From NCBI RefSeq assembly GCF_040054535.1, contig NC_090787.1:15011001-15075000 (forward strand): a stretch of DNA of 64,000 nucleotides. Direction: 5' to 3'. The notes beneath the pieces were generated by a model that was not told the origin of the DNA, did not search any database, and was given only the letters and a program-made list of their open reading frames with translations. Made by a program: the position numbers and the translations under genes. This DNA is from Antennarius striatus. Its lineage: Eukaryota; Chordata; Actinopteri; Lophiiformes; Antennariidae. Below, piece after piece: positions 40,547 through 64,000 of this stretch; the first letter of the stretch is position 1, and every line of letters starts with the position of its first letter.

Positions 40547-40689
40547 AGTAAATATCATGCATACATAAATACATATCTGTCTCTAAATCATGTATAATTT
40601 TAGAGTGTGGACAAAAATATCTGGAGCTTTGCTTTGAAGTGACAGCTCTATTGTTTGATGAGGTTTTTCTCATTCTGAAATGTGCTTAA

Positions 40690-40695
40690 AATAAA
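40690..40695 (+). terminator. tlr8: tlr8 polyadenylation signal, also copied in the array
   Basis: AATAAA about 145 bases after the tlr8 stop. It lies just inside the first repeat unit, so the same motif recurs at the start of the later complete units (44758, 48646, 59159 and 62233). Confidence 0.6.
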
Positions 40696-41667
40696 AATGC
40701 ATTTTCTATGTTTGTTGATGCTGTGAATGCAACATTGAACGTGATTTATTAATTAATAAATGTATCTTTTGTTGCATGTTGTAAATTTGTCATTTCAAAT
40801 ATCAAAATCAAAATGAACACAATGAACCCGATGGTGTTCTTTGATTTTTAACCTGACTTCCAGAAAACACAAGATGGTCATTGAGTTATGTTTCTACAAT
40901 GTCAAGAATATTGACAGAATAAGATCAATACAGACCAACTGTCTATTAGATATTTTTATACAAATATTTTAACCAATTCTAATTATATTTAAAAGTCCTA
41001 GTCACTCTGACCCCAGAACATCCATTAAGTCTGATTTGTCCACAATAGATGCACACAGGCTTGTCATTTAAGTCACAGGATATTTTCATTGTAAATTTAG
41101 CTTTCAGTAGGTTTTTACATTTATTTTTATCTGTGACTGGAAAGCACAATTTATTTCTTTTTGATACTATCGCGCTCAAGTTTCGCATTGCTATTTTAAT
41201 GACACATTTTTATATATCATCCCCCCTTCTTTGGGGGAGAGGCCTCCTCTGTAAACACTCATACTGGTATGTTTTATCCAAACATTTTCTGTAATGTCGG
41301 TTTGACATTAGATGTAAATATAAAGTATATTACCAGTATTGGTTAGAAGCTCATAGACGTCAACGTCCCATTCTGTTATTGGATCTGCTCCAGGTCACTA
41401 CCTCGTTTGTCCACACGGTGTCGTCCTTCACACAGTTTTCACCTGAGAGACTTATTTCACCCTCAAACCTCTTCGTTTACTAGTCGGCTGTTTTGAAACA
41501 ACCCCTGGAAGAAAATGACGTGAATGCTCCAATGAAGACTGGAGGGTTATTCAAATAGTCACATATTTCCCTAACACTAACTGCCGGTAATGCGAATTAC
41601 TGCTTAAATTACTGTAAAACAAAGTTGATCGGGTTTTTAAGATCCGCCTGTGTGACGCCAGATGATC

Positions 41668-41774
41668 ATTTGCATACTGCTCAGTATTTAATGTGGGATT
41701 GACGCATCACCATCACCGTGTTCCAGCGCAAAGGAGACCTTCACTTTACGTTCACTGTTGTCGTGAGAACTCCA
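41668..41774 (+). promoter_or_regulatory. U1 thymosin promoter and non-coding exon 1
   Basis: Octamer ATTTGCAT (41668-41675) is followed by TATTTAA (41685-41691), then a probable exon 1 (about 41715-41774) ending CCA|GTGAGTG. CRE-like TGACGTGA and an inverted CCAAT box lie further upstream. The same layout recurs in all units. Confidence 0.6.
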
Positions 41775-42053
41775 GTGAGTGTTTGTGGAACTTGCCATAT
41801 TTCAAATGAGCAGTTGTTTCTAGTCAGTTTCCAGATGATGCATCTCTTCGTTGTGTCAGAATATTCTAGTCTGTGATGAAACATCAGGAAATGGCTTTTT
41901 GAAGTTCCAGCGTACAAGAAAGACAAACTGCGGAGCGACAAGCGGTTATAAACTTGATGACAATGTTTATTTAAAACCTGAGAAATTCCATTGGTTATGT
42001 GGGAGCAATAATTGCGTGACATTTGTTGATTTTCATGAGTTTTTCCTCTGTAG

Positions 42054-42209
42054 CGGATCTAGTGGGGGGGGGGGGGGTTGAGGGCGGTGGTTCCTGGGCG
42101 TCACGCGCTGCTTCGCGCATACGGGGACTTTCCCGCGTCAGGCGCGGAGATTGTTTGTTTTACGCGCAATGTTTACGTGAAATGCTCCATTGATGAACTG
42201 GAAGCCCAG
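42054..42209 (+). other. U1 GC-rich candidate exon 1b (5' UTR or alternative promoter)
   Basis: Bounded by a good acceptor (TTTTCCTCTGTAG|CGG) and donor (CCCAG|GTATGT). It contains a G-run, CpG-rich sequence and a perfect NF-kappaB-type GGGACTTTCC at 42124-42133. A uORF starts at 42193. Mammalian Tmsb4x also has an alternative intron-1 exon, to my recollection lymphoid-specific, so this may be either an internal UTR exon or a second promoter. Equivalent segments: 46149-46309, 50045-50183, 57505-57657, 60562-60728, 63636-63804. Confidence 0.5.
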
Positions 42210-42257
42210 GTATGTTTGAATCACTTAAAATAGTCTTGTCTTTTTACAGCATCAAAC

Positions 42258-60776: not shown

Positions 60777-60991
60777 ATGGCTGATAAGAAACCAGATTTG
60801 TCAGAGGTCGAATGTTTTGACAAGTCTAAACTGAATAAGACAGAAACGAAAGAGAGCAATCCACTGCCAACCAAAGAAAGTACGTTGCACCTTTTTTTTT
60901 TTTTGGGACGGTTTCTATTCTCAAACTTCGGTACTAATGATTCAAACGTTCTTGTTTTGCAGTCATCGAACAGGAGAAGAATTCATCATGA
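60777..60991 (+). CDS. beta-thymosin, array copy U5
   Basis: Exons 60777-60879 and 60963-60991 give 43 aa, [20 protein letters not shown] and onward to an IEQEKNSS end. This copy keeps the TET of LKKTET but changes the first Lys (LNKTET), the opposite pattern to U1-U4. AATAAA at 61083. Splice sites and reading frame are intact. Confidence 0.8.
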
Positions 60992-63249
60992 AACTGGTCG
61001 GAGTATTTCCTGCTCGGGCTGCTTGAGGATACAAAAAGAACAGTGTTCTTGTAGTTCTGCGCTGCACAAGTTGTACATGAAAAATAAACCCAACATGTTC
61101 TTGTGATATTCTGACTCCGTTTGTGTTCCATCTTCATGAGTGATGCATTTGGTTCCTTATCTGAAGCAGCCGATTGATTCTGGTAGTGTTGCATCTGACT
61201 ATTGAAGATCAGTAAAAATGTTTGTAATATTCTTAATGTTCATAAAAAGAAATTCAGCTGGGTACCAACGATTAATTTAATTTCAAAAGCCAGCCTTTTC
61301 AAATTAAATGTGTCTTAAATTGCATGGTCGTGGACTTGCCGTGCAAAAAACAATTTTGATCTAATCAAGTTGGGTCATAATTTGTAAATAAAATTTGGGC
61401 ACTTAAAAAAAAAAAGTTTGCTTCATCCTGGGGAGATTTTGTACTTATTGAACTCCGTGCAGTGCTTGAGGTTTCTTCTCTGTTGCACAATGTCTGCACT
61501 AAACTCAGCCAAGAGTTCCTCAACATAGTTCTTCTTGTACAGTGATCACTGCCCCCCACTCAATCTGTAGGATTTCTCATAAGGGTGTGTCAGATTAGCA
61601 GCAACATGCAGATTTGCTATGCGGATATCTCAACGTGGCTACCAGGGTGTAATTCAAGAATTTCAACTTTTAATTGCACTTTGCAGTGTTGAGCTGGCCC
61701 AACAGTGTTCTTTAAACTCTCTTGTAACCAAAATGCATAGATCTCCCTAACTGCTTTCTAAGACCTATGCATTATCTCTTGGGAAACTAATGGAAATATG
61801 TGAAACACCGTATCCAATTTTTTAAAAATGATCTGTTTTAAAGTTTAATAAGGTTCATTGTGTCTGAAGACATGTTCTTCCAAGTTCCATGGGAATTTGC
61901 AGTAGCTTTTGTGCGATGCTGCTGATAATCTGAACAACCTGACATAGGTGAAAACTTTTGAAGGTAACTCAAACACAGTACCCAGACACTTCTGCTAACA
62001 TCTTTCTATTAAATTCTAAGCAACCAGGAAGTTTTCAGGTCGAAACACCAAACCTGACTCATCAGTGACGTCAATTTTCTCACACATTTAATGCTAGTAA
62101 ACATTTTCAGGTTATTTACTTGGAAGTTAAATACCCTTACATAAACGCAGTAAAATACTGAGATAAAGGTAAAATTTCTTGCGGCCAAAACACTGACTAG
62201 TACGTATGCCAGTATGGCCCTCTTTTAGGGCCATGAGGTTTTTCTCATTCTGAAATGTGCTTCAAATAAAAATGCATTTTATATGTTTGTTGATGCTGTG
62301 AATGCAACATTGAATGTGATTTATTAAATTAATTAATAAATGTATCTTTTGTTGCATGTTGTAAATTTGTCATTTCAAATATCAAAATCAAAATGAACAC
62401 AATGAACCCGATGGTGTTCTTTGATTTTTAACCTGACTTCCAGAAAACACAAGATGGTCATCGAGTTATGTTTCTACAATGTCAACAATATTGACAGAAT
62501 AAGATCAATACAGACCAACTGTCTATTAGATATTTTTATACAAATATTTTAACCAGTTTTAATTGTATTTAAAAGTCCTAGTCACTCTGACCCCTGAACT
62601 TCCATTAAATCTGATTTGTCCACAATAGATGCAAACAGGCTTGTCATTTAAGTCACAGGATATTTTCATTGTAAACTTAGCTTTCAGTAGGTTTTTACAT
62701 TTATTTTTATCTGTGACTGGAAAGCACAATTTATTTATTTTTGATACTATCGCGCTCAAGTTTCGCATTGCTATTTTAATGACACATTTTTATATATCAT
62801 CCCCCCTTCTTTGGGCGAGAGGCCTCTTCTGTAAAAACTCATACCGGTGTGTTTTATTCAAACATTTTCTGTAATGTCGGTTTGACATTAGATGTAAATA
62901 TAAAGTATATTACCAGTATTGGTTAGAAGCTCATAGACGTCAACGTCCCATTCTGTTATTGGATCTGCTCCAGGTCACTACCTCGTTTGTCCACACGGTG
63001 TCGTCCTTCACACAGTTTTCACCTGAGAGACTTATTTCACCCTCAAACCTCTTCGTTTACCAGTCGGCTGTTTTGAAACAACAGCTGGAAAAGAAAACGA
63101 CGTGAATGCTCCAATGAATATCGGAGGGTTATTCAAATAGTCACATATTTCCCTAACACTAACTGCCGGTAATGTGAATTACTGCTTAAATTACTGTAAA
63201 ACAAAGTTGATCGGGTTTTTAAGATCCGCCCGTGTGACGCCGGATGATC

Positions 63250-63356
63250 ATTTGCATACTGCTCAGTATTTAATGTGGGATTGACGCATCACCATCACCG
63301 TGTTCCAGCGCAAAGAAGACCTTCACTTTACGTTCACTGTCGTCGTGAGAACTCCG
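63250..63356 (+). promoter_or_regulatory. U6 thymosin promoter and non-coding exon 1
   Basis: ATTTGCAT (63250-63257), TATTTAA, exon 1 ending CCG|GTGAGTG at 63356. Confidence 0.6.
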
Positions 63357-63852
63357 GTGAGTGTTTGTGGAACTTGCCATATTTCAAATGAGCAGTTGTT
63401 TCTTGTCAGTTTTCAGATGATGCATCTCTTCGTTGTGTCAGAATATTCTAGTCTGTGATGAAACATCAGGAAATGGCTTTTTGAAGTTCCAGCGTACAAG
63501 AAAGACGAACTGCGGAGCGACAAGCGGTTAAAAACTTGATGACAATGTTTATTTAAAACCTGAGAAATTCCATCGGTTATGTGGGAGCAATAATTGCGTG
63601 ATATTTGTTGATTTTCATGAGTTTTTCCTCTGTAGCGGATCTAGTAGTGGGGGGCGGGGGGTCAGGGGGGTTGAGGGCGGTGGTTCCTGGGCGTCACGCG
63701 CTGCTTCATGCATACGGGGACTTTCGCGCGTCAGGCGCGAGATTGTTTGTTTTACGCGCAATGGTTATGTGAAATAATGATCCATTGGTGAACTGGAAGC
63801 CCAGGTATGTTTTAATCACTTAAAATAGTCTTGTCTTTTTACAGCATCAAAC

Positions 63853-63955
63853 ATGGCTGATAAGAAACCAGATTTGTCAGAGGTCGAATGTTTTGACAAG
63901 TCTAAACTGAATAAGACAGAAACGAAAGAGAGCAATCCACTGCCAACCAAAGAAA
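63853..63955 (+). CDS. beta-thymosin, array copy U6 (partial at window edge)
   Basis: Exon 2 has the same coding sequence as U5, including LNKTET, and ends at a GTACGT donor. Exon 3 lies beyond 64000. Its 5' flank is nearly identical to that of U5, with small differences in the G-run and nearby bases, so it is a very recent duplicate. Confidence 0.75.
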
Positions 63956-64000
63956 GTACGTTGCACCTTTTTTTTTTTTGGGGACGGTTTCTATTCTCAA

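Follow-up and report, generated by a model that had tools for sequence, protein, structure and literature searches.

In this study, we mainly focus on a tandem array of beta-thymosin genes in Antennarius striatus, which occupies the 3′ part of a 64,000-nucleotide stretch of contig NC_090787.1 (assembly GCF_040054535.1, positions 15,011,001 to 15,075,000 of the forward strand; hereafter the window). Self-alignment of the window reveals six beta-thymosin genes arranged as direct repeats 3′ of tlr8, with about 89–98% identity between aligned stretches of the repeat units. An original prediction, made from the sequence alone, had placed a tandem array of such genes next to TLR7 and TLR8, which is borne out by six units in the self-alignment and six loci in genome searches; it did not include the most unusual feature of the locus, namely coding exons that have diverged beyond the surrounding DNA. 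The six-gene array is real, it occupies the TMSB4X locus, and its peptides are more diverse than would be expected there.

The same gene model applies to every unit and comprises a non-coding exon 1 followed by a GTGAGT donor, a coding exon 2 that carries the start codon and is followed by a GTACGT donor, and a coding exon 3 that follows an AG acceptor and, except in unit 2, carries the last 8–9 codons. Exon limits were predicted from conservation in an alignment of the six copies, and on these limits intron 1 measures 458–488 bases and intron 2 81–86 bases. TMSB4X has three exons, the first of them non-coding. Reading frames are open and splice signals intact in all six copies, and an AATAAA lies 280–410 bases 3′ of every start codon. 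The earlier description of copies each with its own promoter, exons and splice sites stands for the upstream region, exons and splice signals of all six; it requires amendment for unit 4, which is 5′-truncated, and for unit 2, which has lost its usual stop. The units, which start at or near the positions given, and their exons (U1 to U6) are as follows.

40658–44757, + strand: repeat unit 1, 4100 bases, starting about 110 bases past the tlr8 stop codon (self-alignment)
41696–41774, + strand: U1 exon 1, non-coding, 5′ end approximate, donor GTGAGT (six-copy alignment)
42250–42357, + strand: U1 exon 2, ATG at 42258
42444–42472, + strand: U1 exon 3, coding part with stop
44758–48645, + strand: repeat unit 2 (self-alignment)
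46350–46460, + strand: U2 exon 2, ATG at 46358
46547–46605, + strand: U2 exon 3, coding part; by a deletion the usual stop is gone and ten residues are gained
48646–50753, + strand: repeat unit 3, its 3′ part gone at a transposable-element junction
50224–50334, + strand: U3 exon 2, ATG at 50232; LKKEDAKEEN against LKKTETQEKN in most relatives
50416–50441, + strand: U3 exon 3, coding part, one codon shorter and ending ...KCA
about 56131–58546, + strand: repeat unit 4, 5′-truncated
57156–57234, + strand: U4 exon 1, 5′ end approximate (six-copy alignment)
57698–57808, + strand: U4 exon 2, ATG at 57706; the LKKTETQEKN of most relatives replaced
57893–57921, + strand: U4 exon 3, coding part
59159–62232, + strand: repeat unit 5, 3074 bases, without an internal stretch of about 1.05 kb of units 1 and 2
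60769–60879, + strand: U5 exon 2, ATG at 60777; the LKKTETQEKN of most relatives replaced
60963–60991, + strand: U5 exon 3, coding part
62233–64000, + strand: repeat unit 6, continuing to about 64820 outside the window
63845–63955, + strand: U6 exon 2, ATG at 63853; peptide identical to that of U5
64039–64067, outside the window, + strand: U6 exon 3

The 3′ end of the array falls about 820 bases past the window, and only the rest of unit 6 lies there, so the statement that the array runs off the window is true of those bases only. Searches of the 548 Mb genome with peptide, Pfam-profile and 1 kb DNA queries place six thymosin genes in the array and two elsewhere, on contigs C24 and C10. No seventh array copy was found among the best candidates, to which scoring in these searches was limited; hence six is the count in the assembly as far as seen, and of the "at least six" copies predicted earlier the six stand and further ones were not found. 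As the peptides of U5 and U6 are identical, the six genes encode five distinct products.

Several structural observations accompany the gene models. In unit 4, the first ~657 bases of the unit are absent, and exon 1 and 250 bases 5′ of it are retained. The deletion in U2 joins exon 3 to the downstream 3′-untranslated region (3′-UTR), lengthening the peptide by ten residues. Because the repeat starts so close to the tlr8 stop codon, units that retain their start may include part of the tlr8 3′-UTR or polyadenylation region. Within intron 1, GGGACTTTCC, which we take to be an NF-kappaB-type consensus, occurs exactly only in U1 (42124–42133, 134 bases 5′ of the ATG), its sole exact match in the window, and the other five copies carry GGGACTTTCG at this site. 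No CArG boxes were found near the array genes.

The coding exons differ far more among the copies than the DNA around them. Across all six copies, the mean pairwise difference reaches 13.5% for the coding part of exon 2 and 15.8% for that of exon 3, and the noncoding parts lie lower: exon 1 at 2.4%, intron 1 at 3.3%, the 5′ flank at 4.2%, the 3′-UTR at 6.0% and intron 2 at 8.0%. Along ~2.1 kb of U1, U2, U3 and U5, measured in windows of 100 bases, the difference is 0.5–5% upstream, peaks at 16.6% in exon 2, lies near 15% just past the stop and then falls to 5–8%; the raised stretch past the stop is due mainly to U3, the value being 6–7% among U1, U4 and U5. Column counts were made on the five distinct copies, U6 being omitted as identical to U5 in its coding sequence, and here 37 of 124 coding columns are variable versus 75 of 932 noncoding columns (3.7 times as often, P = 1e-10). 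Three more variable tracts are excluded from the 932-column set: the intron 1 G-tract (12–15%), the intron 2 donor with the poly-T part (13.5–17%), and the 3′-UTR as far as the U2 deletion extends (10–13.5% over its first 120 columns, mainly through U3). The excess persists when all variable tracts are included (37/124 coding versus 88/977 noncoding, P = 1e-9, five copies), when U2 is left out (34/124 versus 105/1151, P = 4e-8), and when both U2 and U3 are left out (25/124 versus 79/1185, P = 4e-6). Since the nearest noncoding tracts are intermediate, the excess is best described as centred on the coding exons.

The encoded peptides are recognizable members of their family, and all five distinct ones exceed the curated cut-off of the PF01290 profile (50.3–75.2 bits versus 24.8). 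They were compared with 189 distinct relatives from three sets of listed protein matches (the best 120 of 162, 3 of 3, and the best 120 of 1379), from which 135 proteins of 39–50 residues were used for family statistics, the 54 of other lengths, including two-repeat proteins, being dropped. Core identity between array copies is 28–32 of 39 residues, and two teleost peptides share 33–34 of 39 with sea urchin and 32–35 of 39 with sponge. Over 9045 pairs of relatives, core identity has a median of 0.82, with the lowest twentieth of pairs at 0.72 or less; array pairs range from 0.72 to 0.82. Copies that separated recently by the intron measure are thus about as unlike as the peptides of distant animals.

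Much of this variation falls in the central motif and the residues that follow it. LKKTET is present in 98 of the 135 short relatives, and the other 37 depart from it, most commonly as LKKTDT (14). In the array, U1 and U2 have LKKAET, found in six of the 135, whereas LKKEDA (U3), LKKASM (U4) and LNKTET (U5 and U6) are found in none of them. Conversely, the ten residues that are invariant in the 135 relatives (M1, F13, K17, L18, N27, L29, P30, K32, E33 and E38) are kept in every copy. Columns of low entropy vary less often than others (5/24 versus 10/15, P = 0.007; with a stricter cut 4/20 versus 11/19, P = 0.02). Residues unseen at their position in the 135 relatives occupy 11 core positions and one tail position of the array, and changes at otherwise conserved positions are, in U1 numbering, D3Y, K15N, K19N, T23A/M and K26E/S. 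Five of the six copies carry an inserted lysine after MAD (U3–U6) or MAY (U2), a residue found there in none of the 189 relatives; a length change at this site is not unique to the array, because N or P is inserted or changed there in five of them. Cysteines occur twice in U3 and once each in U4 and U5/U6 (50232–50441, 57706–57808 and 60777–60879). Among relatives of at most 48 residues, 14 contain cysteine, 13 of these in the C-terminal tail; the cysteine directly before FDK in U3 and U5 is also present in one listed relative, P0187. No signal sequence was seen in the array peptides by eye. The central LKKT motif of beta-thymosin is described as lying between two helices that are stabilised on actin (PMC11240739). 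To judge from the alignment, the array varies the central actin-contact stretch and keeps the anchors, and altered actin affinity would be the direct prediction.

Exchange among the copies may be reflected in their patterns of shared differences. Among the five copies retained in the column counts, at least 13 intervals with incompatible splits occur within 1.4 kb, five of them wholly noncoding, and these suggest gene conversion among copies. The pair U5 and U6 is 98% alike over ~2.5 kb and shows 17 noncoding differences by BLAST and none in 129 coding bases, a distribution that argues against a hypermutable exon (P = 0.02). Another mismatch count for this pair, 31, includes a run taken as a misaligned repeat, and the BLAST count is used here.

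The neighbourhood of the array is that of TMSB4X. The genes on its 5′ side are as follows.

32718–35870, + strand: long coding frame of TLR7, with LRR and TIR domains; best solved-structure match TLR7, 1295 bits over nearly the whole length
37448–40546, + strand: TLR8; its ectodomain scores 602 bits with TLR8 versus 550 with the TLR7 ectodomain

For the second frame, the top single entry is full-length TLR7 (782 bits), but the TLR8 ectodomain outscores that of TLR7. On the 3′ side, the array is followed by an exon with a MAM domain, presumably EGFL6-like, and then by a RAB9 coding frame. TLR7-TLR8-TMSB4X is the usual gene order of vertebrates, including human, and the array lies between TLR8 and the MAM-domain exon and RAB9, that is, in the place of TMSB4X. 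Because this neighbourhood matches, we interpret the six genes as TMSB4X co-orthologues, and their low noncoding divergence suggests that the array may be restricted to the lineage of this fish. The suggested tie to innate immunity retains its adjacency to TLR7 and TLR8; position is its sole basis, and the order is an ordinary one in vertebrates. Full-text searches of an open-access library turned up no beta-thymosin array, a coverage that leaves subscription journals mostly outside, and to that extent the array still appears undescribed. In the protein lists, the exon 2 peptide of the C24 thymosin gene is present in one of the 189 proteins, P0174 of Antennarius striatus, whose end matches the exon 3 frame IEQEKAEP. 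None of the array peptides is among the matches listed, and the array genes may be unannotated, or fused into models that exceed the length limit of the protein searches.

Mobile elements interrupt the array and border it.

51127–55293, + strand: Ty3/gypsy-type retroelement frames between units 3 and 4, with Pfam matches for protease, reverse transcriptase, RNase H and integrase
56281–56905, + strand: insertion of ~625 bases upstream of U4 exon 1, with a 15–17-base target-site duplication (GACTTATTTCACCCT)

A simple comparison of the two ends found no long terminal repeats around the gypsy-type frames. On either side of this interval, U3 is without its 3′ part and U4 without its 5′ part. The frame in the U4 insertion is LINE-like by eye and has no Pfam match. 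Just past the array (L009, about 4064–5193, − strand), translations contain frames that look Tc1/mariner transposase-like by eye. Upstream of tlr7, at 23740–29623, one frame matches a FERM C-lobe and further long frames have no Pfam match; we take these as possibly FRMPD4. Rfam and tRNA scans of the window gave no match.

On balance, the probable explanation for these observations is that gene conversion makes promoters and introns alike, whereas the coding exons are held apart by selection. A single TMSB4X orthologue 3′ of tlr8 would have given rise to six tandem genes in the lineage of this fish. Because the upstream region, non-coding exon, splice signals and AATAAA are all kept, every copy is predicted to be transcribed and to yield a short, disordered, actin-monomer-binding peptide. 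Ectopic gene conversion would continually mix and homogenise the upstream regions, introns and flanks, and the coding exons would be older than the rest, conversions that erase peptide differences having been removed by selection; intermediate values in the nearest noncoding tracts would fit such older exons. Selection would maintain, or even drive, the coding-exon differences and thereby produce a graded set of copies, in which F13, K17, L18, N27, L29, P30, K32 and E33 are kept as anchors and charge and side chains vary across the central stretch, typically LKKTETQEKN. The likeliest effect would be a series of sequestering peptides with differing actin affinity or partners, supplied from near-identical upstream regions.

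Several results weigh against this explanation. By parsimony, replacement changes number 32 over 101.9 sites and silent changes 11 over 24.1 sites (0.31 versus 0.46 per site, ratio 0.69); relative to the noncoding rate, replacement change is raised 3.8-fold and silent change 5.5-fold (P = 8e-6 for silent), and mean pairwise proportions are 0.13 and 0.17. For the coding sequence of the array, dN/dS is not above 1, the usual criterion of positive selection, with the ten pairwise replacement/silent ratios ranging from 0.47 to 2.55. A silent rise of this size is not produced by selection on replacements alone, nor do the silent changes appear to have hitchhiked on multi-base mutations, as 7 pairs of changes lie within 2 nt in one copy versus 4.8 expected (P = 0.19). 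Once the donor and poly-T part are set aside, the rest of intron 2 varies at the background level (6/56, P = 0.003 versus coding), and as it lies between the two coding exons, short conversion tracts are required. Counted whole, with the poly-T tract, intron 2 has 15/81 variable columns (P = 0.05), and the 3′-UTR has 23/130 over its first 160 alignment columns when U2 is left out (P = 0.04); both are intermediate and only weakly below coding, so how sharply variation drops at the exon edges varies with the tracts counted. Recurrent mutation can also yield incompatible splits. Moreover, the statistics rest on five distinct copies of ~129 nt, with columns that are non-independent under conversion.

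Plain positive selection on codons was rejected as insufficient by itself, since silent change is elevated no less than replacement change. Transition/transversion bias gave no sign of an editing process, with no difference between coding and noncoding sequence (P = 0.29). The readings that remain are older exons through conversion and selection, mutation or patching centred on exons, or both.

The main rival, which we regard as possible but doubtful, is a process of mutation or conversion that is restricted to exons and needs no selection on the peptide, such as has been proposed for snake three-finger toxins, or a patching of exons from cDNA. It would account for silent and replacement changes that are raised alike in both coding exons and not in most of the intron between them, and it recalls the highly similar introns and large exon differences reported for three-finger toxin genes (PMC2711939). 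Used as a DNA query for an outside donor, the U3 coding exon matches only the six array copies, in a search that recovers near matches only. The lack of any coding difference between U5 and U6, with 17 elsewhere, also speaks against it, and purifying selection would be needed in any case for the conserved anchors.

A stronger form of the selective account, in which the six TMSB4X co-orthologues of a core cytoskeletal peptide constitute a diversifying arsenal in a single fish lineage, is tentative. Here, selection against homogenisation would keep the copies different across the actin-binding stretch, for example through an arms race with microbes or parasites that exploit actin or thymosin of the host, or through an extracellular role in defence or signalling.

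Relaxed constraint, under which function would rest with U1 and the C24 and C10 genes and the additional copies would decay into pseudogenes by drift, is rather unlikely. The replacement/silent ratio is near the neutral value of 1 even though many positions of the family core are nearly fixed, U2 has lost its normal stop, U3 is one codon shorter, and U5 and U6 have N for the first K of LKKTET, all of which such drift would explain. Neutral drift alone should nevertheless keep coding variation at or below the intron rate, yet coding columns are variable 3.7 times as often as noncoding ones; all ten family-invariant residues persist in every copy, and the intact frames and splice signals argue in the same direction, weakly at such divergence.

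We consider it improbable that the array is a plain dosage amplification, in which many copies would supply much beta-thymosin and sequence differences would be irrelevant. The abundance of beta-thymosin as a peptide, the close preservation of exon 1 and the shared product of U5 and U6 are in its favour, but selection for dosage would hold coding sequence at least as similar as introns, and the opposite is observed.

An assembly artefact, in which haplotypes or reads from a single gene had been assembled into several, could be suspected from the likeness of U5 and U6 but is very improbable, because the other pairs are about 2–8% apart in intron 1 and the 5′ flank and have insertions and deletions of their own, and because the published A. 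striatus assembly is described as based on PacBio HiFi reads with an N50 above 18 kb and haplotypic duplicates removed (PMC11192929).

Compared with known systems, the array shares with TMSB4X and other PF01290 members the profile match, a coding sequence divided between exons 2 and 3, and the same neighbourhood; it differs in having six copies, the low core identity noted above, the unlisted motifs LKKEDA, LKKASM and LNKTET, the inserted lysine and new cysteines. In HLA class I, introns are homogenised by recombination and selected exons stay diverse, but these are alleles of one locus with another product, whereas the array consists of tandem paralogues. The accelerated-exon pattern of the venom type is also seen, with coding exons at 13.5–15.8% against intron 1 at 3.3% and intron 2 at 8.0%. 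In the snake three-finger toxin and phospholipase A2 families (accelerated segment switch in exons, ASSET), duplicated small-protein genes have introns more alike than exons, and for three-finger toxin genes introns are reported as more than 85% alike with profound differences confined to exons (PMC2711939); those products are secreted, and the three-finger toxins are disulphide-rich, whereas the array peptides appear by eye to lack a signal sequence and their replacement/silent ratio does not exceed 1. In the habu, the tandem genes for small serum proteins resemble the array in having fragments of transposable elements between the units and introns that diverge little (KN 0.049 and 0.065 in the two accelerated pairs), but KA/KS is given as 1.5–1.7 in the accelerated pairs, versus about 0.7 in the array (PMC6609765).

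The significance of the locus lies in this setting. Beta-thymosin changes little across animals, sponge or sea urchin peptides sharing 32–35 of 39 core residues with two from teleosts. Array copies that are only about 3% apart in intron 1 share 28–32, a divergence at least as great, and it lies in the actin-contact segment. The raised silent rate in the coding exons makes the array a test case for the joint action of conversion and selection. If the copies are expressed, they would amount to a naturally occurring set of actin-binding-site mutants and would allow a test of whether a housekeeping gene can enter venom- or immune-type evolution.

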